DNA from: Natronolimnobius baerhuensis
GTDB taxonomy: Archaea; Halobacteriota; Halobacteria; Halobacteriales; Natrialbaceae
DNA: 64,000 bases
Direction of reading: 5' to 3'
Assembly: GCF_002177135.1 (NCBI RefSeq)
Contig: NZ_MWPH01000001.1
Location: 310,001 to 374,000 of the forward strand
Positions 417 through 36,980 of the stretch are shown here, piece after piece; position 1 is the first letter of the stretch, and every line of letters begins with the position of its first letter. The notes below the pieces were generated by a model that ran no database searches, had not been told where the DNA came from, and saw only the letters and a program-made list of their open reading frames with translations. The position numbers and the translations under genes were made by a program.

Positions 417-2915
417 ATGGAGTATCACGAGGCGGCGGACACGCTTTTCGGGCTGCGGCGATTCGGCCCGAAACCGGGAACGGAGTCGACCGAACGACTC
501 CTGTCCCACCTCGAGGACCCCCACGACGGCGTTGATTTCGTGCAGATTGCCGGCTCGAACGGGAAGGGAAGCACGGCACGGATGCTCGAACGAACGCTTC
601 GCGAGGCGGGGCTCTCGGTGGGACTGTACACCTCGCCGCATCTTGAGGACCTGCGCGAGCGGGTTCGGGTTGATGGACGCAAGATCCCGAGGTCAGCGGT
701 CTGTGCGTACGTCGCAGACATTCAGGAGTATGTAACGAAACGGGCCGCCGACGGCGAGTCGCCGACCTTCTTCGAGGCGATGACGGCCATGGCGCTGTGG
801 CACTTCGGGAACGAAGACGTCGACGTGGCCGTCCTCGAGGTCGGTATCGGCGGAAAACTCGACGCGACGAGCGTCGTCGACCCGATTGCGAGTGCAGTGA
901 CGAGCGTTACCTTAGAACACACCGGTATCCTGGGCGACACGGTCGAAGAAATCGCCCGCGACAAGGCCCACGTCGCCCCCGCCGACGCGCCGCTGGTCAC
1001 CGGCGTCACGGGCGCTGCGCTCGAGGCGATTCGCGACGTGGCCGGCGAGGTGGTGACGGTCGGTGGCGTCGATGGCTCAGAATCGGGCACAAGACGCGCA
1101 CGGCCTGACGTTCGGGTCGCCTACGACGGCCTGACGAACCACACCGAAGCGGGCGTCTCGATTACGGCCGACGACTGGGACCTCCAGACGCGGGTCCCAC
1201 TCCCCGGCGAGCACCAGGCCGAAAACGCCGGCATCGCCGCGACGCTCGCTCGGCAGGTCACGGCCGTCTCGAGCGCGGACATCGCTCGCGGCGTGCGAAA
1301 CGCCCACTGGCCCGGGCGGTTCGAAGTGATGGGGACCGACCCGCTGGTCGTCCTCGACGGCGCGCACAACCCTGGTGCGTGCGAGCAACTCGCGGCGACG
1401 CTCGAGCAGTACGCATACGACGATCTGACGCTCGTTTTCGGCGCGATGCACGACAAGGACCACCGGGAAATGGCCGATGCCCTGCCGACGCCCGACAGCG
1501 TCGTCGCAGCCGAACCGTCGCTCGAGCGGGCGGAGGACCCGGCCGTTCTCGCCGACGTATTCGAAGACGCTGGCGTCCCGGACGTTCGAACCGAATCCGC
1601 CGTCACCGACGCCCTCGAGACGGCACTTGTAGATGCTGACCCGAACGACTGCGTGCTCGTCACCGGCTCACTGTTTGCGGTCGCCGAAGCCCGTTCGCGC
1701 TGGACTCGCGCGGACGTGCCAAAGCGGGTTCGTGACCGCACAGACGCCCGAAAAACGCTCGAGAACGCAGACGTGACGCCAGAAACCGTCCGGCGACTCG
1801 AGGACGAGGCGGTCCACCGCGTCGTGAAGACGACGGTCCAGCCCGGCCAGGCCGACCGCCTGCAAGAGGAACTGCTGCGTCTCGGCGGCGAGTGTGCGAT
1901 TTCCGGCCACCGGGACGCCGGCGAGCGCGTCGAGGCCGTGCTGATGGGCACGCTCGCGCAGTTCGAAGGACTGATCGACACCCTCGAGAGCGAGTCGACG
2001 GGCGACGGCCTCGCGGCGGTCACCCGCCACCTTCGCGAGACCATCGGACTCGAGGAACGCGACCCCACCGTCGGGGCCCCGGAGAGCAATCCACAGTACC
2101 CGTGGCACGACCGTACTGCCGTCATGGGTATTCTGAACGTCACGCCGGACAGTTTCCACGACGGCGGCGAGTACGACGCGCTCGAGGATGCCGTCTCTCA
2201 GGCCGAGGCGATGGTCGAGGCCGGCGTCGACGTGATCGACGTCGGTGGCGAATCCACGCGCCCCGGTGCAGAACCCGTCTCGACGCAAGCAGAAATCGAC
2301 CGCGTCGTCCCCGTTATCGAACGCATTCGCGACCTCGAGGCCCACATCTCGATTGACACGCGCAAGGCCGTTGTCGCCGAGGCCGCACTCAAGGCCGGCG
2401 CGGACATCATCAACGACGTTTCGGGGCTCGAGGACCCCGAGATGCGCTTCGTCGCGGCCGAGTACGACGCGGGCCTGATCGTCATGCACAGCATCAACGC
2501 GCCCGTCGTGCCGGACCAGGACGTGACCTACGACGACGTCGTCGAGGACGTCATCGATCAGCTCTCAGAGCGCGTGTTGCTCGCCGAGAAAGCGGGCGTC
2601 GACCGTGCAAACATCGTTATCGACCCCGGAATCGGCTTCGGGAAAACGGCCCGCGAGAGCTTCGAGATGCTCGACCGCCTCGCCGAGTTTCGCGCGCTCG
2701 GCTGTCCCATCCTCTTTGGTCACTCCCACAAATCGATGTTCGCACACGTCGGCGGCGAGGCCGGCGACTGTCTCGAGGCAACTGTCGCGGCGAGTGCGCT
2801 GGCGGCGGATCGCGGCGTCGATATCGTCCGTGTCCACGACGTGCCCGAAAACGTCGCCGCCGTTCGGACAGCGCTTGCGACGCGTGACCCGGAACAATTC
2901 GAGTGGGAGGGGTAG
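417..2915 (+). CDS. folCP: Bifunctional dihydrofolate/folylpolyglutamate synthase - dihydropteroate synthase fusion
   Basis: Joins two consecutive steps of folate synthesis: dihydropteroate formation from pABA and the pterin pyrophosphate (FolP), then glutamate addition (FolC). The 832-residue protein starts with a Mur-ligase-type FolC half: P-loop AGSNGKGST at residues 45-53, central domain to about 270, C-terminal ligase domain to about 430. A linker domain of about 130 residues follows. The FolP TIM barrel begins near residue 570 with the signature GILNVTPDSF, with SIDTRK near 644 and GHSHKS near 767. This FolC-FolP order is known in halophilic archaea; the length fits a complete fusion. 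The start is an ATG 72 bases after the upstream gene. No folate partner genes lie beside it. Identity is seen directly from both signatures; the linker's role is unknown. Confidence 0.95.
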   Translation: MEYHEAADTLFGLRRFGPKPGTESTERLLSHLEDPHDGVDFVQIAGSNGKGSTARMLERTLREAGLSVGLYTSPHLEDLRERVRVDGRKIPRSAVCAYVADIQEYVTKRAADGESPTFFEAMTAMALWHFGNEDVDVAVLEVGIGGKLDATSVVDPIASAVTSVTLEHTGILGDTVEEIARDKAHVAPADAPLVTGVTGAALEAIRDVAGEVVTVGGVDGSESGTRRARPDVRVAYDGLTNHTEAGVSITADDWDLQTRVPLPGEHQAENAGIAATLARQVTAVSSADIARGVRNAHWPGRFEVMGTDPLVVLDGAHNPGACEQLAATLEQYAYDDLTLVFGAMHDKDHREMADALPTPDSVVAAEPSLERAEDPAVLADVFEDAGVPDVRTESAVTDALETALVDADPNDCVLVTGSLFAVAEARSRWTRADVPKRVRDRTDARKTLENADVTPETVRRLEDEAVHRVVKTTVQPGQADRLQEELLRLGGECAISGHRDAGERVEAVLMGTLAQFEGLIDTLESESTGDGLAAVTRHLRETIGLEERDPTVGAPESNPQYPWHDRTAVMGILNVTPDSFHDGGEYDALEDAVSQAEAMVEAGVDVIDVGGESTRPGAEPVSTQAEIDRVVPVIERIRDLEAHISIDTRKAVVAEAALKAGADIINDVSGLEDPEMRFVAAEYDAGLIVMHSINAPVVPDQDVTYDDVVEDVIDQLSERVLLAEKAGVDRANIVIDPGIGFGKTARESFEMLDRLAEFRALGCPILFGHSHKSMFAHVGGEAGDCLEATVAASALAADRGVDIVRVHDVPENVAAVRTALATRDPEQFEWEG

Positions 2916-24029: not shown

Positions 24030-24806
24030 TTAGAGACCGCTTCGAATCCGTTCCTCTGCCTCCTCGAGCGCTTCTTCCCGGTCGAACGCTTCGATAATCC
24101 CCTCGAGTTCGCCCTCTCCAGCGTCGGCCAACTCCTGTGCATGTGCCGCCATGTTCGGCACGGCGCGAATGATGTTGTCGACGATTGGCACTTCGGCAAC
24201 CTGTGGCGACCGCGAGAGCGGATTCAGGTCGATCACGAGTTCCGTTTTGCCCATTGCCTCGAGCGCTTCGGCGCGGTCGCCGTCCTCGAGTGGGACGAGC
24301 ACCACGTCAGCCTCGTAGATGCCGTCGGCGTCGACTTTCGCGCGCTGGTGGTCGAGATTTGGGATGCGGGCGTCGGCCTCGAGGCCCTTTACTTCCGTCG
24401 CGCCGTGCTCTCGAAGATGGTCGGCGATGGCCGCGATGCGCTCGTCAGTCCGGTTGAAGAGGTTGATCTCGAGGTCGGCATCGGTCGCGTCTGCTAGGTC
24501 GACCATCTCGCCGGGGACGAGTGCGGCGACGTTGCCGTTGATCGAGAGCACGGGGTGGTCAGCCAGAAGGAGATGCGCCGCTGCGGCGCGCTCTGCGGCG
24601 TCGGCGCTCGGAATCGTCTCCTCGCCAAGCAGGTAATCGAAGGCGCTGCCCCGGCCTTCGGCGTGCATCCCCTGGAGGTGGGTAATCCCTTTCTCGACGC
24701 CCGTCTCGATGCGGTGGCGCGTGAGCAGGTCCTGATAGCGGGGGTGGTCCTCGGGAATCTCCTCCTCGTGCGTCACGTCGGCCGGAACGGTCTCGTCCTC
24801 GCTCAC
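24030..24806 (-). CDS. 4-phosphopantoate--beta-alanine ligase
   Basis: Archaeal CoA biosynthesis: joins 4-phosphopantoate with beta-alanine to give 4-phosphopantothenate, replacing bacterial pantothenate synthetase and kinase order. 258 residues. Recognisable stretches of the archaeal family: RHRIETGVEKGITHLQGM (about residues 30-47), HAEGRGSAFDYLLGE, LSINGNVAALVPGEMV, NLFNRTDERIAAI, and the C-terminal LVIDLNPLSRSPQ and VDNIIRAVPNM. The partner enzyme, pantoate kinase, is encoded at 33502-34329 on the same strand. It converges with the DUF4870 gene. Confidence 0.93.
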   Translation of the reverse strand: MSEDETVPADVTHEEEIPEDHPRYQDLLTRHRIETGVEKGITHLQGMHAEGRGSAFDYLLGEETIPSADAAERAAAAHLLLADHPVLSINGNVAALVPGEMVDLADATDADLEINLFNRTDERIAAIADHLREHGATEVKGLEADARIPNLDHQRAKVDADGIYEADVVLVPLEDGDRAEALEAMGKTELVIDLNPLSRSPQVAEVPIVDNIIRAVPNMAAHAQELADAGEGELEGIIEAFDREEALEEAEERIRSGL

Positions 24807-25015: not shown

Positions 25016-26179
25016 ATGACATCTGTCCGCATGGAGAATGTTAGCAAATACTTCGATGCGGGAAACACCGTCGCGAACTATCAGCTCAATCTCGAGGTCG
25101 AAGACGGTGAGTTTCTCGTCTTTCTCGGGCCCTCCGGGTGTGGGAAAACCACGGCACTCAGGCTGATCGCGGGCCTCGAGCAGCCCTCGGAGGGAGCGAT
25201 CTACTTCGGCGACGAACGCGTCGATGGGCGCTCCTCGAGTGATCGTAACGTCGCGATGGTGTTCCAGAACTACGCGTTGTATCCGCATATGACGGTCGCG
25301 GAAAACATCGGCTATCCGCTGAAAGTCCGTGGGATGTCCCCCAACGACCGCGACCTGAAAGTCGAGGAGGTAACCGAGTTGCTTCACATCGAAGGCCAGG
25401 TCGACAAGAAACCGGGGGCCCTGTCTGGCGGCCAACGACAGCGGGTCGCGCTCGCTCGCGCAATCGTTCGCGAGCCGAGCGTCTTCTTGCTCGATGAGCC
25501 CCTGTCGAACCTCGACGCCAAACTCCGTCAAGAGATGCGAATCGAACTCAAACGCCTCCAGAACGAACTCGAGGTCACGACGGTCTACGTCACGCACAAT
25601 CAGGAGGAGGCGATGAGCATGGCCGACAGGGTCGTCGTGATGAACAAGGGAACGATCCAGCAGATTGCGCCGCCGGGCGAGTTGTACGAGCGCCCGCGGA
25701 CGGCCTGGGTGGCTCGGTTTATCGGCTCGCCGCCGATGAATCTCTTTCAGGGCCAGCGCCGAAACGGCTCGCTCGAGGTCGGCTCGGCGGGAGCGGTCGA
25801 CCTGACGAGCATTGCATCGACAGCGGAGTCCAGCCCACAATCGGGTGAGGAAGCTGTCGTCGAAGCGGGCCAGTCGGATGCGGGCTCGGCTGGCATGGTC
25901 ACGGACGCCTCTCAGGCGACGGGCGACCTCTCGCTCGGCGTTCGCCCGGAGGATTTGACGGTGACGACGTCGCCGCCGGCGACTGGTCACGCACTCGAGG
26001 GCACCGTCGACACCATCGAACCCTTCGGCGAGTACGACCTGATCAACGTCACCGTCAACGACCAACTGGTCAACGCGAAAATGGCAACGGCGACAGTCAG
26101 CCGCGGCGACACGGTCTATCTGACGTTCGAGGACGACGATGCATACCTGTACGACGAAACCGGCGAACTGGTCGGGTGA
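25016..26179 (+). CDS. Sugar-type ABC transporter ATP-binding protein (MalK/UgpC family)
   Basis: Energises uptake through the two permeases that follow. 387 residues: Walker A GPSGCGKTT (residues about 41-49), signature LSGGQRQR near 136, Walker B FLLDEPLSNLD, switch His in TVYVTHNQEEAM. A C-terminal regulatory region (about 240-387) carries a TOBE/MalK-type OB domain (LSLGVRPEDLTV). An acidic insertion around residues 262-300 (rich in Ser, Glu and Ala) separates the two. A GGAG about 8 bp before the ATG and a TATA-like GTTATATC near 24950 fit an operon promoter. First gene of a three-gene operon. Confidence 0.93.
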   Translation: MTSVRMENVSKYFDAGNTVANYQLNLEVEDGEFLVFLGPSGCGKTTALRLIAGLEQPSEGAIYFGDERVDGRSSSDRNVAMVFQNYALYPHMTVAENIGYPLKVRGMSPNDRDLKVEEVTELLHIEGQVDKKPGALSGGQRQRVALARAIVREPSVFLLDEPLSNLDAKLRQEMRIELKRLQNELEVTTVYVTHNQEEAMSMADRVVVMNKGTIQQIAPPGELYERPRTAWVARFIGSPPMNLFQGQRRNGSLEVGSAGAVDLTSIASTAESSPQSGEEAVVEAGQSDAGSAGMVTDASQATGDLSLGVRPEDLTVTTSPPATGHALEGTVDTIEPFGEYDLINVTVNDQLVNAKMATATVSRGDTVYLTFEDDDAYLYDETGELVG

Positions 26180-26185
26180 GATGAG

Positions 26186-27151
26186 ATGAGCTTCCGAGAC
26201 CGACTCGAGGACCTCGAGTTCGATACCGACCGCGATGAGGGGTCGATTCTGTCGTTCGACCGGGAGAAAGCGCTCGCGATAGCGGTATTTCTGATTCCTG
26301 GGCTGACACTGTTTGGCATTTTTTCCGTCGGGCCGATTGCCTACTCGGCGGTCGGCAGTTTCTACTCGTGGGAGACGTTCACGATGGGTGAGTTCGTCGG
26401 GCTGGACAACTGGATTGACTCGCTCACTAATCCGCTCATCGTCCACTGGTCGAACATGCGCGAGTTACGGTATCCGATGGGGGCGCTGACGCACAACCTC
26501 CTCTGGGTGGTGATTCATGTCCCGGCGAGTACCTTCCTTGGGCTAGGATTGGCACTCCTCTTTGCAGACCTGCGCGGGCGGCGAATCCTCCGTGCGATGG
26601 TGTTTGCGGGCTTTACCGTCCCACCAATCGTCATCGGACTGGTGCTGTTGTTCATCTACGACCCGCAGGCAGGGATCTTCAACGAGTTACTTCGAGTGAT
26701 CGGTCAGGAGCAGTGGGTTCGCAACTGGACGCAGTCACCACAGGTCGCCATCTACGCGCTCATCGCGGGCGGCATCTGGGTCCACACCGGCTTCAGCATG
26801 CTGCTGTATAGCTCGTCGCTGTCGGCGATTGACCCCTCGCTGATCGAATCAGCCAAAGTCGACGGCGCTGGCCCCTGGCGGCGATTCCGCGACATCATCT
26901 GGCCGCTGGTCAGGCCGGTGACTGCCGTCGTCGTCATTATGGGCATCATTTGGGTGATGCGCATGTTCGACATCGTCTACGCCGCCGGCGGCGCAGCAGG
27001 CGGGCCGAATCACGCCTACTCGGTCCTCGGCATCGAGGTGTATCGCGCGGCCTTCCGGCCGGAAATCGACTACGGGATGGCGATGGTCGTTGCCCTGTTG
27101 CAACTGTTCATCGTCGCCCCGCTCGCGCTGTACATCGCACGGATGAGATAA
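26186..27151 (+). CDS. Sugar-type ABC transporter permease (MalF family)
   Basis: Membrane subunit of the uptake system, 321 residues with six transmembrane helices after a polar N-terminal tail of about 30 residues. The EAA loop that contacts the ATPase is visible as ESAKVDGAGPWRRFRDIIWP (about 213-232). Starts 6 bp after the ATPase gene stop and ends 2 bp before the third gene, so all three are co-translated. The substrate cannot be deduced from the permease; family members carry mono-, oligosaccharides or glycerol phosphate. Confidence 0.92.
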   Translation: MSFRDRLEDLEFDTDRDEGSILSFDREKALAIAVFLIPGLTLFGIFSVGPIAYSAVGSFYSWETFTMGEFVGLDNWIDSLTNPLIVHWSNMRELRYPMGALTHNLLWVVIHVPASTFLGLGLALLFADLRGRRILRAMVFAGFTVPPIVIGLVLLFIYDPQAGIFNELLRVIGQEQWVRNWTQSPQVAIYALIAGGIWVHTGFSMLLYSSSLSAIDPSLIESAKVDGAGPWRRFRDIIWPLVRPVTAVVVIMGIIWVMRMFDIVYAAGGAAGGPNHAYSVLGIEVYRAAFRPEIDYGMAMVVALLQLFIVAPLALYIARMR

Positions 27152-27153
27152 TC

Positions 27154-28125
27154 ATGAGTAACGACGACCCACTCGAGCCGACTGGCACCGGTCCAGATTC
27201 AGACACGGCGGGCACAGACCGCTATCTGCGCGTCGAAGACATCCCCGAGACGGCTCCAGCAGCGGATCTCACGTGGCAGGAGCGACTCGCCGACGCCATC
27301 CCAACGAAACGACGCACGCTCAAGTACATCCTCGCGATTTCCATTGCACTCCTCTGGATCGTTCCCTTCATCGGCTTGCTCATGGCCTCGTTCCGGCCGC
27401 TCTCGGAGATCATCGGCGGCTGGTGGCACGTCGAGGGAATGACCCTCACGCTCGAGAACTACTACGGCGCGTGGAACTACAGCACGGCACCGATGAGCCA
27501 GGCGCTGCTCAACACGTTCATCGTGACGATTCCGGCAGTGTTAGTCGTCATGCTACTCGGCGTGATGGCGGCGTATCCGTTCGCTCGCTTCGAGTTCCCG
27601 CTGAAGACGACGCTGTTTTTCCTGATCTTGCTCGTGATGGCCGCGCCGCCGGAACTCGTCGCGATGGGCAACTACAACGCCCTGCGCGATATCGGCCTGT
27701 TCGACACCTACATGGGGCTGATTCTGATCCACATCGGCTGGGGCCTTGGCTGGGTCGTGCTGTTCTTGCGCAACTTCCTACTTGGCATTCCGAAAGAACT
27801 CGAGGAGGCTGCGAAGATCGACGGGGCATCTCGCTACCAGATCTTCCGGACGATCATCCTGCCGCTGTCGACCCCGGCGCTCGTCTCGGTTGCGGTGATT
27901 CAGTTCACTTGGGTCTGGAACGCCTTTTTCTTCCCGCTGGTGTTCATGCGCTCGCCGGAACTCTATCTCGCGCCACAGGTGCTCCCGCTGATGAGCGGAC
28001 GCGTCCAGGTCGAGTGGGGGATGATCGCTGCTGGCTCGATTATGACGATGGCAGTGCCAGTTATTCTGTTTCTGGTGCTCCAGCGTTACTACACGCGCGG
28101 AATGGTGGCTGCCGTGGCGGATTGA
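27154..28125 (+). CDS. Sugar-type ABC transporter permease (MalG family)
   Basis: Second membrane subunit, 323 residues from ATG 27154. A long acidic N-terminal tail (about 55 residues) precedes six helices, beginning KYILAISIALLWIVPFI. The EAA loop is EEAAKIDGASRYQIFRTIIL (about 222-241). An in-frame extension upstream runs through the previous gene and is not used; the ATG lies 3 bp after the MalF-type stop. Together with the two preceding genes it forms an importer whose binding protein is encoded on the other strand at 28934-30193. Confidence 0.93.
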   Translation: MSNDDPLEPTGTGPDSDTAGTDRYLRVEDIPETAPAADLTWQERLADAIPTKRRTLKYILAISIALLWIVPFIGLLMASFRPLSEIIGGWWHVEGMTLTLENYYGAWNYSTAPMSQALLNTFIVTIPAVLVVMLLGVMAAYPFARFEFPLKTTLFFLILLVMAAPPELVAMGNYNALRDIGLFDTYMGLILIHIGWGLGWVVLFLRNFLLGIPKELEEAAKIDGASRYQIFRTIILPLSTPALVSVAVIQFTWVWNAFFFPLVFMRSPELYLAPQVLPLMSGRVQVEWGMIAAGSIMTMAVPVILFLVLQRYYTRGMVAAVAD

Positions 28126-28581
28126 GTGTCGACTCGAGACGTTGTTGTGCTCGAAACGAGGGATAGATCACAGCACCACAGTAACACTTTTGCCCTCTAC
28201 ACTGATAGATATACACGTCGGTCGATTACAGAATCAGTCGCCTGGCAGAAACACATAAAATAGGGCTGGCCGTGTCAGCGACCAGCGTTACTCGTCAGGC
28301 GACTCATCGGACGGTGCGGCGATTGCGATGGCGACGAGCAGCCAACCGAATGCGTTCCCCTGTGTCAGCAGGGTCACGCCGCCAGTCGCAAGGGCCGCGC
28401 GAAGTTCAGGAGGTATCCGTTCTCACCTCCACTGCTGTCGTTTTGTTACCACGCAGCGTGCGTGGGTGGTCAATGACCACGTTCTATTCGAGACAGAAAT
28501 CCTGTATAAATAATGGCATACGAGCCAAAGCTGATCCGTCGACACCCACTTTTGCGACGGTTCCGATATGGCTAGCGTCCG
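28126..28581. other. 456-bp spacer without a complete gene
   Basis: Between the converging transporter operon and the small membrane gene. It contains a short minus-strand frame ending in a membrane-like tail (28288-28419) and a TATA-like TGTATAAATAATGG near 28503-28516 on the plus strand. No tRNA, repeat copy or convincing full gene was seen. Confidence 0.45.
28288..28419 (-). pseudogene. Possible C-terminal remnant of a membrane protein
   Basis: A minus-strand frame of 43 codons between two stops reads like a protein tail: ELRAALATGGVTLLTQGNA, then a hydrophobic GWLLVAIAIAAP helix and acidic SDESPDE before TAA. It has no ATG, the only start being a GTG within it, and no upstream body in any frame. 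It may be a decayed gene end or a very small membrane protein of about 28 residues. Weak evidence. Confidence 0.25.
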
Positions 28582-28926
28582 CTACAGCGGCATGTACCCG
28601 GCTCGAGTCACGGCCACTGTCACACCGATCACGAGCACGTTCGTGATGAAAAACAGGCGTGAGGACATCCACGCGAACGAGAGCAAGACGGCGATTGGGA
28701 GCAACGCGATGAGCGCCGGCCAGGTGCCCCGAATCGCGAGCGTCGCGAAAAACGCCATCGTGAACACGTACAGGAAGTCGACGGCGACGGCGTTGGCACT
28801 ACTGCGACGAATTTCTTGTCCGACGATGACGAGCGACTCGAGGGGGCCACGGCGGTCGCCAGTGGCCGACTCCGATCCCGACTGCTCGCTTCCATCGCCG
28901 TCGCTGCCGTCGGTGGGTGTCGCCAC
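28582..28926 (-). CDS. Small membrane protein beside the binding protein
   Basis: 114 residues from GTG 28926, eight bases after the binding-protein stop, so probably co-transcribed with it. The N-terminal 45 residues are polar and Ser/Gly/Asp-rich; then EIRRSSANAVAVDFLYVFTM leads to three short hydrophobic helices (about 49-62, 68-84, 89-108). No family recognised. By position it could help assembly of the transporter, but nothing in its sequence shows that. The start is uncertain. Confidence 0.55.
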   Translation of the reverse strand: MATPTDGSDGDGSEQSGSESATGDRRGPLESLVIVGQEIRRSSANAVAVDFLYVFTMAFFATLAIRGTWPALIALLPIAVLLSFAWMSSRLFFITNVLVIGVTVAVTRAGYMPL

Positions 28927-28933
28927 GGGTTGA

Positions 28934-30193
28934 TTAGGTCTCGTCCTCGCCGACGGTTTCCTGTAACACGTCGTCGAGCGACTCGAGCATCGGTTCGACG
29001 TCCTGTTCGGGTTCCGCCCAGAGGCCGAGCAGTTGCGACCAGAACTCCGCCTGGAACGGATCGCCGAGTGCGTCATCTAAGTCGGGGACGAGTTCGACCT
29101 CGTCTGCCTGCTCGGAGATATCTTGCATCACCTCGAGGTCGAAGGCGTCGTCGGGCACGTCGAGTGCGGTGGGGACGAACCCGCCGCGTTCGGTCCAGAC
29201 CTCCTGCCCGTCGGGTGAGATGATCGCCTCGACGGCATCAGTTGCGGCGTCGACGTCGGGTGCGTACGCGGGCACGGTAAACCAGTTGATGCTCGTCACC
29301 ATGGCCTCCGACCCAGGGAGCATGAAGTAGTCCAGATCCTCGGGGTCTTCGATTGCGCCGAAGGCGGGCGTCCACGAGCCCATGAAGTACAGCGGAATCT
29401 CGTTTTCCCAGAAGAACTCGTACTGGACGCCGAAGTCCCGCACTTCGCTGAAGTAGCCCTCCTCGAGCAGTTCCTGTAACTCCTCGAAGGCGGTGACGAC
29501 GCGGTCGTCAGTAAACGAGGCGTCGCCCTCGATGAGATCGAGTTGCAGTTCGGCCCCATCGTCCTGCCGGAGGATGAACGCCTCCGCGACGTCGCTCAAC
29601 GGCCAGCCGTCGCCGTTGCCCGACGCCAATGGCGCTTCGACGCCGTCGATATCGTCGATTTCGTCGAGCAGGTCGACGAACTCGTCGTAGTCCTCGGGCT
29701 CCTCGAGGTCGTGTTCGTCGAAAAACGACGGTCGGTACCAGAAGCCGGGTTTGATGTCCCCGCCGAAGGGTGCGGCGTACACTTCGCCGTCGACTTCGAC
29801 CGCGCTGTAGTCGGTCGCGTAGTCGTCTTCGTCCCAGAGATCCCCGAGTGGCTCGAGGTGGCCGGCGGCGCCGTCCCGTTGGACACGCCCTTCAGTCGGG
29901 AGGACGACGATATCAGCGGTTGCGACGCCGACCTCGTAGTCCATGAGCGTCTCCGTCAGGAGGGTCTCGGTGTCTCGAGGCGCATACGAAATCTCGAGGC
30001 CGGTCTCGTCTTCGGCGTAGTCGACGACGGCGAGGAAGTCCTCCTCTTCGTCATCGGTCCAGACCGCAGTGACCGTGATCGCTTCCTGTGCGCTTACCCC
30101 GCCAGCGCTTCCCAGACCAGTCAGTACAACGAGTCCGCCGCCTGCTCCTCGAAGGACCGTTCGTCGGCCGATAGGTGCGTTATTCTCGCCCAT
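28934..30193 (-). CDS. Tat-exported ABC sugar-type solute-binding protein
   Basis: Captures substrate outside the cell for the importer at 25016-28125. 419 residues. Twin-arginine signal: Arg10-Arg11 in GRRTVLRG, hydrophobic core to about 30, and an AxA-like cleavage site VSA (33-35) before Gln36. No lipobox Cys is present, unlike most haloarchaeal binding proteins, so anchoring is unclear. Mature part has the extracellular solute-binding family 1 pattern: ITVTAVWTDDEEEDF, a ligand-site aromatic cluster (GGDIKPGFWYRPSFF), FFWENEIPLYFMGSW. Encoded on the opposite strand from the permeases and converging on them. Confidence 0.9.
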   Translation of the reverse strand: MGENNAPIGRRTVLRGAGGGLVVLTGLGSAGGVSAQEAITVTAVWTDDEEEDFLAVVDYAEDETGLEISYAPRDTETLLTETLMDYEVGVATADIVVLPTEGRVQRDGAAGHLEPLGDLWDEDDYATDYSAVEVDGEVYAAPFGGDIKPGFWYRPSFFDEHDLEEPEDYDEFVDLLDEIDDIDGVEAPLASGNGDGWPLSDVAEAFILRQDDGAELQLDLIEGDASFTDDRVVTAFEELQELLEEGYFSEVRDFGVQYEFFWENEIPLYFMGSWTPAFGAIEDPEDLDYFMLPGSEAMVTSINWFTVPAYAPDVDAATDAVEAIISPDGQEVWTERGGFVPTALDVPDDAFDLEVMQDISEQADEVELVPDLDDALGDPFQAEFWSQLLGLWAEPEQDVEPMLESLDDVLQETVGEDET

Positions 30194-30348: not shown

Positions 30349-33288
30349 TTACTCGGTGAACGTGATCCAGCCGTTCGGTGCGTGGCTCTTGACGTCGTTC
30401 ATCGCCTCGCGGGCGTCCGTGCGGCTCTCGTAGGTCTGGGTGCTCTCAGCCATCGTCGAGCCGTACTCGTCGATTAGCTGCCAGACCCAGCCATCCTCGG
30501 CTGTGTGCAACTCGAAGGAGACGCTATCGATCTCGAGGATGCTCGCCGAGTCGATCAGCTCACGGACGTTCTCGAGTGCCTCGCGGGCGCGGTCGTTCGA
30601 CTCGTACGTTTCCGTGCCGGTTGCGACCCCACGGCCATCAGCATCGAGCAAGCGCCACTGCCAGCGGTCGTCCTCGTCGGCAACGAGTTCGAACGACGCG
30701 ACGTCGAAGTCGACACGGCCGGCCATCGGCGCGAGCTGGCGGACGTCCTCGACGACCGTATAGAGGTCGTCTTTCGTCGCCTCAGTGTCGGCCGAGCCAG
30801 CGACAACCTCACGGTCAGCACTGATGAGGCTCCACCGCCAGCCACCTTCGCTATCGTCGTCGCTCGCCGCAGTATCGCCGTCTTGCTCGAGTCGGACGAC
30901 AGTGTCTTCAATTGTGAAGATCGGTGCCGATTCGGCGTGGTCAGTGAGCGCTGCGACGCGCTCGCGAGCGTCTTCACGCGTGTCGTAGGAGACGTTCGAG
31001 TCGGCGATTTCCTCGCGGTCGCGGTCGAGGACGCGCCAGTGCCAGCCGCTGCTTTCGTAGAGTTGGGCAGTCGCGTCGCCAATCGTACAGCCACGTGCCC
31101 TTGCGGCGGCCTGTTTGATCTCTGGAACTCGCTCGGTGAGTTCGTCCCGAGTTGGATGTGGTTCGTCGTCGACGGCCACGGTCTCGCCCGACGGCAAGAC
31201 GAATCGCCAGTGCCAGTCCTCGGCGGCCGAGAGTTGGAAGATGGCGTCGTCCATCGTTCGCACGTCGGACTCGAGGTGCTCGAGCAGTCGGTTCATTGCC
31301 TCTCGAGCGGCGCTGCGGGTCGGATGGGTCGTCGGATCTTCGGCGACGAGTTTGCCGCCCTCGTCGATGAGCCGCCAGCCCCACTCGTCGTCATCGTTGA
31401 CGAACAGTTCGAACGCGGCCGTTTCGATCTCGAGCAGTTCGGCGTCGGGTGCCTGCTCTTTGAGCGTCATCATGGCCTCGGCGGCCTCGCCGCGGCTTGT
31501 GTGCTCTTCGCCGCTGTCAGCCAAGACGTTGCCGTCCTCGTCGATGAGCCGCCAGCGCCACTCGCTGTCATCGGCTTCGTAGACCTGGAACGCTGCGTTT
31601 TCGAACTCGATCAGATCCGCTTCGCTGGCCTGCTCGCGCATGCGCTGAATGGCGTCTTTCGCCGTTTCCGTGCCCATGTGGCGCTCATTGCTCGCTGCAA
31701 TAACGTCTCGCTCTTCGGTGACGAGTCGCCACTGCCACGGCGACTGTGGCTCTATGTCCTCGTCGTTATGCTCGAGCGTGACGCCGCCGTCGGTCGTCGC
31801 TGTCGGCGAATCGGCCGCCGCTGGAAGGTCATCGTCTGGCGTCATCCCGTCGCCGAGTGACATCTCACCAGCGGGGTAGAGTTCGTACTCTGCGCCATCG
31901 ATTTCGACGACGTCCGCGTCGGTTGCGTGTTCGGCGAACGTGTCGGTTTCCTCGCTCGCAATCGCGTGATTCGCATGACCGTCCGGTGAGCGAGCAACGA
32001 TGCGTTCGGCACTGTCGACGAGTCGCCACTGCCACTGTTCGCCGGATTGATAGCGTTCATACGTCGGTTCGCCAGCAACTGTCACGGGTGCCGAACCGAG
32101 ATCTGGCAACAGCGTCTCGGCGGCTTCCTCTGCATCACGGCGAGCATCGTAGGTCGCTGTCGCAGTCGCCATGACGGTGTCGGTGTCGTCGACAAATCGC
32201 CACGTCCAGCCTTCATCTCGCTCGTACAGTTCGACACCGAGATGTTCGATATCGAGCACTCGAGCCTGTTCGACCTGTTCAGCGAACGTTCGAGCAGCCT
32301 CCTCGGCACCGGCCTGATCCGCGTGACTCTCGTCGCTAGTCGCCAAAACGGTGTGGTCGTCGTCGACCAGTTGCCAGTACCAGTGGTCGCGTTCTTCGGT
32401 GTAGGTGAACGCAGCGCCTTCGATTTCGATGACGTCTGCCTCTGGGCCGCGGTCTTTCAGGAAACTCACCGACTCTTCTGCCCCATCTCGCTCGGCGAAC
32501 TCGCCGCTACAGGCACCGACGACGCTGCCGTCATCGCGAGCAAGCGTCCACTGCCAGGTGCCATCTCGACCCTCGTATAGCCGGAACGCCGAGGTCGTCA
32601 GTTCCATCAGTCCCGCGGAACTAATCTGGGACTTGACGCGCTCGATTCCCTCACGTGCTTCCGGTCGCGTCACGGCACTGCCATCACTCGTCGCCAGCGC
32701 CTCCCGGTGAAGCACGTTCCACTTCCAATCGCCGTTCTCGTCTCGGAACACGGCAAACTGGGCGTCCTCGAGCGCGTTCCCCGTCAAAATCGGCGGATCG
32801 TCCGTTGCCCCTTCCTCTTCGACGAACAGTCCTTTCCGTCCCGTCAGGACGGGCACGAGCGCCATTACACCCGCAATAATCGCAATCCCTGCCGTGTAGA
32901 CGACGATTACTTCGACGTCAAGTCCCTGACCGAGGTGTCGCCAATCGTGTGGGTACACAGAAGCGAACCAGCCAACGCCGCCGAGGGCAACGAGGAGACC
33001 GACGAAACTCGCCTGAATCCCGCGTTTTCGAACCGGCAGCATCAGTCCGATGCCGAACAGGCAAATCGCCAGGCTTGTCGCTGCTGCGGTGCCCGAAATC
33101 CTGATAATCGCCTCCTCAGTGACGCCGCCTGCGTATCCGATGACGAACGTGATCAGCGCCGCCGCCGCGATTGCATACCCCAAAATAAACAACCAGTACC
33201 CGTACACATCCTTCCCCGAATCCGGTTCTCCGACATAGTGTTCGTACAGTCGGTAGAGCCGGCGATTGATTTCGCTCGTGAATGACAT
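30349..33288 (-). CDS. Four-TM membrane protein with 13 DUF1508-like repeats
   Basis: 979 residues from ATG 33288 (ATG 33306 would add six). Residues 1-30 are polar, then four transmembrane helices (about 31-53, 67-86, 91-111, 126-148). The remaining 830 residues are a chain of repeats, each carrying WxW followed by a Leu/Val-rich strand, a Thr/Ser-Ala/Gly-x turn and a helix with Ala/Glu. First Trp of each: 188, 245, 303, 361, 419, 518, 577, 636, 692, 749, 817, 876, 934, so most are 56-59 residues apart, with an acidic 40-residue insertion between 5 and 6. This is the DUF1508 (YegP/UPF0339) pattern, usually found once or twice in small proteins. Function unknown; the repeats should face one side of the membrane. 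Confidence 0.85.
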   Translation of the reverse strand: MSFTSEINRRLYRLYEHYVGEPDSGKDVYGYWLFILGYAIAAAALITFVIGYAGGVTEEAIIRISGTAAATSLAICLFGIGLMLPVRKRGIQASFVGLLVALGGVGWFASVYPHDWRHLGQGLDVEVIVVYTAGIAIIAGVMALVPVLTGRKGLFVEEEGATDDPPILTGNALEDAQFAVFRDENGDWKWNVLHREALATSDGSAVTRPEAREGIERVKSQISSAGLMELTTSAFRLYEGRDGTWQWTLARDDGSVVGACSGEFAERDGAEESVSFLKDRGPEADVIEIEGAAFTYTEERDHWYWQLVDDDHTVLATSDESHADQAGAEEAARTFAEQVEQARVLDIEHLGVELYERDEGWTWRFVDDTDTVMATATATYDARRDAEEAAETLLPDLGSAPVTVAGEPTYERYQSGEQWQWRLVDSAERIVARSPDGHANHAIASEETDTFAEHATDADVVEIDGAEYELYPAGEMSLGDGMTPDDDLPAAADSPTATTDGGVTLEHNDEDIEPQSPWQWRLVTEERDVIAASNERHMGTETAKDAIQRMREQASEADLIEFENAAFQVYEADDSEWRWRLIDEDGNVLADSGEEHTSRGEAAEAMMTLKEQAPDAELLEIETAAFELFVNDDDEWGWRLIDEGGKLVAEDPTTHPTRSAAREAMNRLLEHLESDVRTMDDAIFQLSAAEDWHWRFVLPSGETVAVDDEPHPTRDELTERVPEIKQAAARARGCTIGDATAQLYESSGWHWRVLDRDREEIADSNVSYDTREDARERVAALTDHAESAPIFTIEDTVVRLEQDGDTAASDDDSEGGWRWSLISADREVVAGSADTEATKDDLYTVVEDVRQLAPMAGRVDFDVASFELVADEDDRWQWRLLDADGRGVATGTETYESNDRAREALENVRELIDSASILEIDSVSFELHTAEDGWVWQLIDEYGSTMAESTQTYESRTDAREAMNDVKSHAPNGWITFTE

Positions 33289-33295
33289 TCGTAAA

Positions 33296-33314
33296 TTCGA
33301 GTGCATAACTCGAA
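33296..33314. promoter_or_regulatory. 7-bp dyad between TATA and start of the DUF1508 giant
   Basis: TTCGAGT-GCATA-ACTCGAA, eight bases upstream of ATG 33288, with a TATA-like TTTATCATATTA on the minus strand at about 33317-33328. Such placement would let a repressor block initiation. It overlaps the alternative start at 33306, which argues for 33288. Confidence 0.45.
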
Positions 33315-33501
33315 CGTAATATGATAAAGGTTCGGCCTCGAGTTTGCTAAATTATGTGTTCTGAGAGATGTATTCGCGTCTCGGCCTCCTGTGAACTACA
33401 GCAATCACCAGACGAAACTGTACTGACTGAGTTGTGGCGGTTCCACTCTATCGCTGCACTATCCGTTGAAAACGACTGATTGTGGCGATCAGGGTCCGTT
33501 C

Positions 33502-34329
33502 TTACTGCAACATCGCCCCTGCCGGATGCGTCGCACAGACGTTCGGATCGTAGCCGGCATCGGAAAGGCCCGTCCCGAGTGCGAACACTGTTTCGCCGAG
33601 CATCGCCATTGAGGCCTGTCCCTCGACGTCCGTGACATCGCCAATCGTTCTGGCGACTTGCTCGGTCACCAATCCAGCCTCCCGCGCGAACAGTCGGGAT
33701 GCATACATAAAGGATAGAAGAGTCGGTTCTTTGACGACTCGAGAGAGTGCTTCTTTCCCGGCGTCCGTCAGTTGGTCGGTCTCCCCCGAGAGCACGTCGG
33801 CCGTCGAGAGTTCGCCGAACGTGACGTACTCGACGCGAGCGCGCGCTGGGATTGCATCGAGTGTATTCTCGTGTGGGCCACCAGGCTCGAGTCGAATCGG
33901 AATACCGCCGTGGGCCTGTGCAACCACGTCGCCGAGGCCGGTGCCAGCTTGCACCTCCGCGCCGTGGGCAATCGTCACGAGTTCGTTCATCGAGAGCGTG
34001 CGTTCGAAAACGCGATTTGCCGCGAGCGCGGTTCCAAGCGCCATCGCGCCTGACACGCCAAAGCCAGACCCAAGCGGCAGCTCCGATTCGGCCTCGACGC
34101 GAGCCGTCGCTTCGAGCGTCTCGAGGACGGTCGTCACGGGTTCGATCTCGAGTGACTCGCCGTCGAGCGCGATTGTCGTCTCCGCTGCCGGTTCAACCGT
34201 CACCGTCACCCCATCAGTGAGCGTGAGGCCCGCTCCTCGAGAGCCGGCTTTCGTCGGGTCGTCGTCCGGGTGGGCGCTGAAAAAGCCCGTGATGTGGCCG
34301 GGAACGAACGCAGTCGCCTCGTCGCGCAT
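33502..34329 (-). CDS. Pantoate kinase
   Basis: Archaeal GHMP-family kinase that phosphorylates pantoate at the start of CoA biosynthesis; its product feeds the ligase encoded at 24030-24806. From ATG 34329 it has 275 residues beginning with the family N-terminus AFVPGHITGFFSAH. GHMP motifs: ATP-binding ELPLGSGFGVSGAMALG (about 86-102) and GAGLTL earlier, and C-terminal ASMAMLGETVFALG. An upstream in-frame ATG (34401) gives a non-family extension and is rejected. Divergent from the zinc-finger gene across 153 bp. Confidence 0.92.
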   Translation of the reverse strand: MRDEATAFVPGHITGFFSAHPDDDPTKAGSRGAGLTLTDGVTVTVEPAAETTIALDGESLEIEPVTTVLETLEATARVEAESELPLGSGFGVSGAMALGTALAANRVFERTLSMNELVTIAHGAEVQAGTGLGDVVAQAHGGIPIRLEPGGPHENTLDAIPARARVEYVTFGELSTADVLSGETDQLTDAGKEALSRVVKEPTLLSFMYASRLFAREAGLVTEQVARTIGDVTDVEGQASMAMLGETVFALGTGLSDAGYDPNVCATHPAGAMLQ

Positions 34330-34482
34330 TACCTGCCGTTTCGGACCGAACGGTATAACAGTGAAGATTTCGCCCCTCGCTCCGGCGTCGGCTCCGATCA
34401 CCGTTCGTGTTGGGCCAACGGACTCTCATCACGCAGTGAAGGTCATGGTATTGTATTTATGTCACTCCGTTGGAGGATGCGT

Positions 34483-34881: not shown

Positions 34882-36888
34882 TCAGCGCTGGCGCTCGATC
34901 ACGTCGGGTATCTCGGAGAGTCCCATCCCGCCGCGTTGGCCAGCGGATTCGTGCCAGCCCGCAAGCGTCGCCTCGATGGCGTCCGCCTCGGCGACGAGTC
35001 GGTCTGTCGTAATTTGTTCCTCCCGTCGAAGCGCCTCGCGAGCGACCCGTCCGGCGAGATGGCGAACGTCCCGAATGCTAAAGCCAGCCGTCGCCTCGGC
35101 GACCGCCTCGAGATCCATCTCTGCGTGCAAGAATCCCTCGGGGAGCGAGTCGGCAAGAATCGCTGCGCGCGTCGTCCCATCCGGTGGCGGCACCTCGATT
35201 CGCTCGTCGAAGGTTCCCGCATGCAGGACGTCGATGTTGACGCCATCGACGCTGCGCGCCGTTGCCACGACGAGCACATCGTCACCAAGCGTCGGCAGCA
35301 GCGTCTCGAGGCGCGTTGTCACTCGTCTAGTGTCTCTTGAGCCACTGGACGCGGGCGCGAGTTCGTCGAGATCATCCAGTATGAGTACGCACGGGGCGAG
35401 CGACCGGGCATCCTCGAGAATATCGGCCGCGCGGTCGGCTGGCTCATCGACGCCCTCCTGATGGAAGCGACCAACACTGAGTTCGACAATTGGCCGATTC
35501 AGTTCCGCGGCGAGCGACTGTGCGAGCGATGTTTTCCCTGCATCGGGCGGGCCGTACAACAGGACGCCGTCGACCGCAGGCACCGCGTACCGTTCGTAGC
35601 CGTCGGGATTTCGAACCGGCTCGAGAACCCGCCGTTCGAGTTGGGCCGTCAACTCGTCCATCCCTGCTAACGCATCGAAGGGAACGGGATCGTCGGCCGA
35701 TGAGCGCCCCAGATCCTCGTCGAAGTGATCCTCGTAGCGATCCAGCCAGCCCGCGATGCTGGTGTCGATTTCCTCGAGTGCCTGCTGGAGGTGACCCTGT
35801 TCGACCGGCGACTCATCAGCGATTGCGTGTCGGATCGCCACGTCCGCAACGAGCGTGACGTCACTCGAGGCGTAGCCCGCTGTCGCCTCGGCGATGGCCT
35901 CGAGACTCACCTCGTCGGCGACCGGCGCATCGGCGAGTTCGAGCCGAAGCATCTCGAGACGTGCCCGCCGGTCCGGCGGCGGGATCTCGATGCGCTCATC
36001 GAATCGACCCGAGCGCAGGATGGCGTCGTCGACATCCTCGACGTAGTTCGTCGCCGCGAAGACGACGATATCGGCGTCAGTCTGTGACTCGAGTTCCGTA
36101 AGGAGTTGATTGACCATCTGCTGTTCGCTGTTTGCCATCCGACCCGAGCGGTCGCCCGCGATGGCATCGATTTCGTCGATGAAGACGAGACAGGGCTCAT
36201 TCTCGCGGGCCGTCTCGAACAGCGTCGCGACGTTATCAGCAGCCTCGCCGATGTACTTGCTCGTGATATCTGAGGGCGTGACCTCGAGGTAGTTGTAGTC
36301 TGTCTCGGCCGCGAGCGCGCTCGCGACGAACGTCTTGCCACAGCCCGGCGGCCCGTGAAAGAGGACGCCGTTGACCGTCCCGATTCCGTAGTAGTCGTAG
36401 ACGTCCTCGCGCGTTAGCGGGTCGATCACCCGGTCGTGGAGCGTTTCCTTCAACTCCATCATTCCGCCGACGTCCGAGAAGTCGTGTCCCGGCGGCTCTG
36501 TCTCGAGGTCGTCGCCCGCAAGTGCGGTTCCAGTTTCGTCCTCGCTGTCGCCTCGAGGGTTCGATCCGTGGCCGCCCTCGCCCGGCGCTCCCTGAATCTG
36601 GCGCGTCTGTGTCGCCCCGTCCGTGTGTCGGCCGACGAACTGCCAGGCCAGCGTCAGCGCTGGTGGTGCGAACACGAGCGCAGCGTCGCCGGTCGCGACG
36701 AAGCCGCCGACGCCGACGACGTACGCGGCACCCAAAAACAGCCGATCCGCCTGTGCGGCGACCGCCCACGAGACCGTCCGAAGCACGAGTGCGACCGTTC
36801 CGGCCATCAACACGACCGCGAGAAATGCGGTCGAACCGGGAACGAGCGCACTCGCGTCGGTGAGCAGCGCCGGTGTCAAACTGGTCAT
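34882..36888 (-). CDS. Membrane-anchored double-AAA ATPase (CDC48-like)
   Basis: 668 residues from ATG 36888. Two or three N-terminal hydrophobic helices (about 20-37, 49-65, 69-86), a Gly/Asp-rich linker, then two AAA modules. Module 1 is intact: Walker A GPPGCGKT (179-186), Walker B VFIDEID, sensor-1 Asn in ATNYVED, arginine finger in LRSGRFDER. Module 2 keeps Walker A GPPDAGKT (446-453) but has LILDDLDE (Glu to Asp in Walker B), ATARSVD (sensor Asn lost) and LHAGTFDER (finger Arg to Thr), so it may bind but not hydrolyse ATP. Probably a membrane-linked protein remodelling or unfolding machine; substrate unknown. Confidence 0.88.
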   Translation of the reverse strand: MTSLTPALLTDASALVPGSTAFLAVVLMAGTVALVLRTVSWAVAAQADRLFLGAAYVVGVGGFVATGDAALVFAPPALTLAWQFVGRHTDGATQTRQIQGAPGEGGHGSNPRGDSEDETGTALAGDDLETEPPGHDFSDVGGMMELKETLHDRVIDPLTREDVYDYYGIGTVNGVLFHGPPGCGKTFVASALAAETDYNYLEVTPSDITSKYIGEAADNVATLFETARENEPCLVFIDEIDAIAGDRSGRMANSEQQMVNQLLTELESQTDADIVVFAATNYVEDVDDAILRSGRFDERIEIPPPDRRARLEMLRLELADAPVADEVSLEAIAEATAGYASSDVTLVADVAIRHAIADESPVEQGHLQQALEEIDTSIAGWLDRYEDHFDEDLGRSSADDPVPFDALAGMDELTAQLERRVLEPVRNPDGYERYAVPAVDGVLLYGPPDAGKTSLAQSLAAELNRPIVELSVGRFHQEGVDEPADRAADILEDARSLAPCVLILDDLDELAPASSGSRDTRRVTTRLETLLPTLGDDVLVVATARSVDGVNIDVLHAGTFDERIEVPPPDGTTRAAILADSLPEGFLHAEMDLEAVAEATAGFSIRDVRHLAGRVAREALRREEQITTDRLVAEADAIEATLAGWHESAGQRGGMGLSEIPDVIERQR

Positions 36889-36980
36889 TACTGCTATGTG
36901 AAACGAATCCACCAAAATAGTTCTGGTGAGAGGTTCGATAATTGATCTGCGGTGGCGACGATAGCAAGCTCGAGAGTCGC

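Follow-up and report, generated by a model that had tools for sequence, protein, structure and literature searches.

A haloarchaeal membrane protein with thirteen DUF1508 repeats, the middle one of which keeps the canonical loop

What might a cell do with thirteen DUF1508 units joined in a single chain and tied to a membrane domain? To our knowledge, DUF1508, a widespread domain whose structure has been solved, is without a known function. The question is raised by a gene of Natronolimnobius baerhuensis, a member of the Natrialbaceae for which Halobiforma was the nearest named relative in our tree. The gene was analysed within a stretch of 64,000 nucleotides (contig NZ_MWPH01000001.1, positions 310,001 to 374,000), called the window below. 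An initial annotation, made from the sequence alone, had described its product as a membrane protein with 13 DUF1508-like repeats and suggested that it forms a scaffold, a surface array or a sensor array.

Domain organization of the array protein

The reading frame is open from 33288 to 30349 on the reverse strand and encodes 979 amino acids, in which 13 DUF1508 modules come after a DUF7139 domain with four transmembrane (TM) helices. The orthologues back the ATG at 33288 as the start, and an ATG at 33306, which would lengthen the protein, falls within an upstream dyad. The gene has a TATA box of its own, as had been proposed: the TATA-like TTTATCAT lies about 40 nt ahead of the ATG (33321–33328, reverse strand), and CTTTATTAT occupies the same place in most orthologues. 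The dyad, which had also been remarked upon, is indeed a perfect inverted repeat in the window (TTCGAGT-TATGC-ACTCGAA, 33296–33314), but it is not conserved in the orthologues, which rules it out as a conserved regulatory operator.

Profile searches bear out the identity of both domains. The Pfam model for DUF1508 (PF07411) matches the protein with 220.7 bits against a curated cut-off of 22, eight repeats lying singly above its domain cut-off, and that for DUF7139 (PF23600) matches residues 10–151 (32836–33261, reverse strand) with 130 bits against a cut-off of 30. The NCBIfam model for HVO_2922 (NF041908) matches 12 stretches, and its score of 269.2 bits (cut-off 90) is the sum over these 12. 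An independent repeat HMM, built from five-repeat proteins of other genomes only, recovered 13 domains in register. Twelve of these score between 17 and 58 bits; repeat 9 is the weakest at 3.6 bits, where the best of 200 shuffles of the repeat part reached 3.3. The repeats are therefore DUF1508 units throughout the chain, and not in a few places only.

Thirteen WxW sites mark the repeats, with first tryptophans running from position 188 to position 934 as initially counted, and with a spacing of 56–59 residues except for 99 and 68 at two hairpin insertions. All repeats are encoded on the reverse strand. Repeat 1 (W188; residues 174–230, 32599–32769) has a shortened β2-β3 hairpin, and repeat 2 (W245; residues 231–287, 32428–32598) is well conserved. 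After repeats 3 (W303, 32254–32427), 4 (W361, 32080–32253) and 5 (W419, 31903–32079) comes repeat 6 (W518, 31606–31902), whose first hairpin holds an inserted stretch of about 40 residues (475–513) that is disordered and variable. The middle repeat 7 (W577; residues 562–620, 31429–31605) is followed by repeats 8 (W636, 31258–31428), 9 (W692, 31084–31257) and 10 (W749, 30907–31083), by repeat 11 (W817, 30706–30906) with a short insertion in its first hairpin, and by repeats 12 (W876, 30532–30705) and 13 (W934; residues 920–979, 30352–30531).

The AlphaFold2 model of the full-length protein, for which 29 orthologues were used, has a mean pLDDT of 82.8, mostly 80–95 over the repeats, and contains 13 β/α units, the relative placement of which is uncertain given a pTM of 0.55. 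E. coli YegP (2k8e), SO3888 (2k49) and HVO_2922 (6q2z) are among the best Foldseek matches, with a probability of 1.00, and these matches together with the modelled units give the repeats the β-β-β-α fold of YegP. The single units are thus modelled with confidence. When four adjacent repeats were modelled by themselves, a check that had been suggested, the fragment spanning repeats 7–10 was poorly predicted (pLDDT 69.5) and was left unused. As for neighbouring repeats that might pair like those of two-unit YegP, the Foldseek r.m.s.d. was 13.5 over the two-unit proteins and the TM-score 0.42.

The four TM helices expected ahead of the repeats are found by hydropathy, by AlphaFold2 and through the Pfam DUF7139 match, and in the AlphaFold2 model they span residues 25–53, 59–83, 88–111 and 124–149. 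DUF7139 resembles MAPEG (LTC4 synthase) with a Foldseek probability of 0.8–0.9, a likeness between models that probably reflects just the four-helix bundle. Averaged over 51 sequences, the TM2–TM3 loop holds 2.53 Lys and Arg and 0.06 Asp and Glu residues, and the two outer loops hold 0.14 and 0.90 Lys and Arg. Because the TM2–TM3 loop is rich in basic residues and both ends of the TM domain would thus lie inside (N-in/C-in), the positive-inside rule predicts that the repeats, together with both termini, are cytoplasmic, which answers as a prediction the earlier question of the side they face. No hydrophobic segment of TM strength follows the DUF7139 domain in the array protein.

A constant number of repeats and a distinct middle repeat

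Strong matches to the array were found in 93 of the 125 Natrialbaceae genomes. About 32, or about a quarter, lack the gene, which is therefore dispensable. Relatives outside this family occur in Halorubellus, Salinarchaeum, Halosimplex, Halomarina and Haloferax marinum. Counted with an iterated repeat HMM, the repeats number exactly 13 in each of 71 intact loci, a set that comprises the Natrialbaceae main copy, a paralogue and distant families (at least four other haloarchaeal ones), with some genomes counted twice. A search for orthologues with different repeat numbers, also suggested initially, hence rules out variation between them, save for one deletion derivative and a separate five-repeat family. 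The order of the repeats is kept as well, since the closest repeat of the main copy stood at the corresponding position in 100 of 104 cases for the paralogue and in 136 of 169 for the distant families. From the positional match and the constant number together we infer that the array was complete before these lineages separated, and that it has neither expanded nor shrunk since.

The exceptions to 13 are the deletion derivative in genome G053, frameshifted copies and truncated contigs, and at the threshold used one paralogue (L123) shows only 12 repeats. The G053 orthologue (L040, 7540–8934) is 465 residues long; an in-frame deletion joins approximately repeat 2 to approximately repeat 12, leaving DUF7139 and four repeats between unchanged neighbours. 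A frameshift breaks the array gene of Natrinema thermotolerans / G076 (L112/L041) into two overlapping reading frames.

The paralogue class has kept 13 repeats and carries one or two TM segments in place of DUF7139. It arose within the Natrialbaceae with a support of 100/100 in the tree, which was read without row L131, translated in a wrong frame. N. baerhuensis itself encodes such a paralogue (L039, 8774–11743; G000:C2), with 13 DUF1508 repeats in unchanged order, two predicted TM segments and no match to DUF7139. At the threshold used, DUF1508 matches in this genome are confined to the array gene and its paralogue, and no free-standing DUF1508 protein was found.

The repeats are not equivalent. 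They have diverged individually, and the canonical loop is kept by repeat 7 alone, which stands exactly halfway along the array, with six repeats on either side. Taking the three groups together, 34 of the 60 columns of repeat 7 are conserved at ≥90%, compared with 7–19 columns in the other repeats, where repeats 2 (19), 8 (18) and 6 (16) come closest. Coming after the third strand, the ADSG loop is found in 64 of the 71 copies of repeat 7 and at none of the other 12 positions. Repeat 7 is also the best sequence match of the array to HVO_2922, over nearly the full length (E = 1.6e-9). Across all homologues, similarity is weakly raised between repeats five positions apart (1-6, 2-7, 6-11, 8-13; permutation p = 0.004 before correction for eight lags), which is suggestive only of an array that may stem from block duplication of a five-repeat ancestor.

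Gene neighbourhood and possible roles

Upstream of the array gene lies a conserved neighbour, a pantoate kinase of the GHMP kinase type (33502–34401, reverse strand). The downstream neighbour in most relatives is phosphopantothenate synthetase (PPS; here at 24030–24668, reverse strand). In the window, a sugar-type ABC transporter intervenes (25016–30193), in a place where most relatives have little or nothing; it comprises an ATPase, a pair of permeases and a substrate-binding protein that is divergent and bears a twin-arginine-like signal. A double AAA ATPase whose N-terminus contains a hydrophobic stretch (34882–36915, reverse strand) adjoins the pantoate kinase, and is found near the array in L095 and Halorubellus (L119) as well, but not generally.

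The reading that we favour, tentatively and with somewhat less than even confidence, is that the array protein is a membrane-tethered cytoplasmic structure of fixed length, made of 13 DUF1508 units, in which the single canonical unit binds or dimerises. The DUF7139 domain would anchor the assembly on the cytoplasmic side of the membrane. The 12 diverged units would be structural, serving as spacer, support or secondary contacts, and would hold repeat 7, which may bind a partner or ligand or dimerise with another chain, as HVO_2922 appears to. The suggestion that repeat 7 may pair with a second array or take up a ligand starts from two observations: the PDB entry 6q2z contains two chains of this 60-residue protein, and the search of the same genome, at the threshold used, yielded no DUF1508 protein standing by itself. 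A scaffold role, one of the functions first suggested, is possible; assigning it, like the assignment of partner binding or dimerisation to repeat 7, is a guess. We are less inclined to a sensor array made up of like units, as the repeats have diverged one by one and the canonical loop is confined to repeat 7.

A bolder version of this reading, which we consider doubtful, would make the protein a ruler of counted length on the inner membrane face, with six diverged units, one canonical unit and six diverged units, a number of 13 kept by selection ever since the haloarchaeal families that have the array diverged, and a centre that dimerises or binds a ligand. The low pTM, the poor model of four repeats and the dispensability of the gene weigh against the reading that we favour, and the fixed repeat number may reflect descent instead of function. 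If the ruler reading were true, the protein would amount to a modular device of set length in which one position is active, made from a domain that is otherwise seen mainly in very small proteins. The constant 13 raises the question of what the chain measures or closes. With the canonical loop in one of its 13 units, and 12 that keep the fold but have lost the loop, the protein lets the structural part of DUF1508 be told apart from the functional part. The kept loop of repeat 7 tells where to mutate, and the combination of constant length and a single kept copy is directly testable.

The neighbouring genes suggest another role, that of a helper of coenzyme A synthesis which recruits or regulates pantoate kinase and PPS. 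Both genes flank the array on the same strand at 29 of 37 Natrialbaceae loci and at 3 of 11 loci elsewhere, counts that include several loci on short contigs, and the linkage recurs in several deep clades of the tree; it is real and probably old. However, PPS keeps its own TATA box and GTG start, and a separate, conserved promoter precedes the array gene. Of 16 genomes that lack the array, 14 have the genes of the two enzymes no more than 0.6 kb apart, and the four such sites examined were free of any remnant of it; the enzymes thus work in its absence. Haloferax marinum, Halosimplex and Halomarina, moreover, carry the array at another place. We therefore hold a role in coenzyme A synthesis to be improbable; an operon of these genes is likewise weakened by the separate promoters and the clean empty sites.

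Somewhat less improbable, if still unlikely, is a stress- or damage-response protein that works like bacterial YegP, with the array multiplying the effect. In its favour, multi-stress induction has yegP as a hub in E. coli (PMC9501238), perchlorate induces HVO_2922 (PMC12175516), and yegP homologues follow the DNA-damage-responsive capK/capS genes in 57 cases (PMC13373217). Yet these data concern expression or gene neighbours, and come from proteins of one or two units, while the lack of the canonical loop in 12 of 13 units argues against a single activity that has been multiplied. A surface or extracellular array, adhesin-like or serving as a cell-wall scaffold, would suit a long acidic repeat chain on a membrane domain; a surface array had been among the initial suggestions. 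This reading becomes very improbable in view of the charge distribution, which places the N- and C-terminal ends of the four-helix domain on the cytoplasmic side, and of the lack of any later segment of TM strength. We give least credence of all to a neutral or relict expansion, in which the array decays without a specific function. Sporadic loss, the in-frame deletion to four repeats in G053 and the frameshift in Natrinema thermotolerans would agree with it, but repeat number and order have been retained in five families or more, and likewise in the duplicate copy, and position-specific conservation is strong, above all in repeat 7.

Relation to other DUF1508 and DUF7139 proteins

The two domains were already known. 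Unexpected is how a constant count, positional orthology and the retention of one canonical unit come together in one protein. In the literature searched, DUF1508, YegP, UPF0339 and HVO_2922 were named only in passing, and COG3422 and DUF7139 were the subject of no paper found. No partner, ligand or phenotype of any DUF1508 protein came up there, nor any description of the array architecture, most subscription papers lying outside the reach of the search.

HVO_2922 (PDB code 6q2z; NF041908) has the domain in common with the array, and shares the motif LADSGE with repeat 7. It is a protein of 60 residues, however, with one unit and no membrane domain, whereas the array has 13 units, 12 of them without ADSG, and a four-TM domain. 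The array protein can thus be rejected as an HVO_2922 equivalog in spite of its score, since it comprises 979 residues, 13 units and four TM helices and the equivalog is a single-domain protein of about 60 residues. NF041908 is a 54-position “equivalog” model, and automatic annotation would label the 979-residue membrane protein “HVO_2922 family protein”. The current naming model would therefore conceal the array under the name of a 60-residue protein. YegP/UPF0339 proteins (PF07411; PDB codes 2k8e, 2k49, 3bid) share the fold and the Pfam model with the array repeats, but are small, with one or two units and no membrane anchor. Nor is the array a typical small YegP protein, for the domain is present but the canonical ADSG loop occurs in repeat 7 only.

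Other haloarchaeal families (f4 and f5 in the genome set; e.g. L134, L136, L148, L149) combine DUF7139, a coiled coil and five canonical DUF1508 units. They have the membrane domain and the type of module in common with the 13-unit array; in contrast to it, their units are all near-canonical, resemble each other more than any position of the array, and are linked to the membrane by the coiled coil. In two haloarchaeal genomes (G376 and G193; loci L145, 7098–8867, and L146, 6611–8428) a stop codon divides the five-repeat gene at about the same place into a three-unit membrane protein, which retains DUF7139 and the coiled coil, and a two-unit YegP-like protein with its own ATG. The split may represent either a natural fission or a translational device.

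DUF7139 itself occurs in 372 of the 392 Halobacteriales genomes sampled, mostly in proteins of about 320 residues. Two of these, both from N. baerhuensis (L154 and L155), were read; they share the four-helix domain with the array protein, but end in an acidic or cysteine-containing C-terminal tail and have no DUF1508. The 366-residue L154 protein (913–2010, reverse strand) has a Cys-rich C-terminus (YCGNCQHFEY...YCGRHE...CEEW) that looks like a zinc-binding end.
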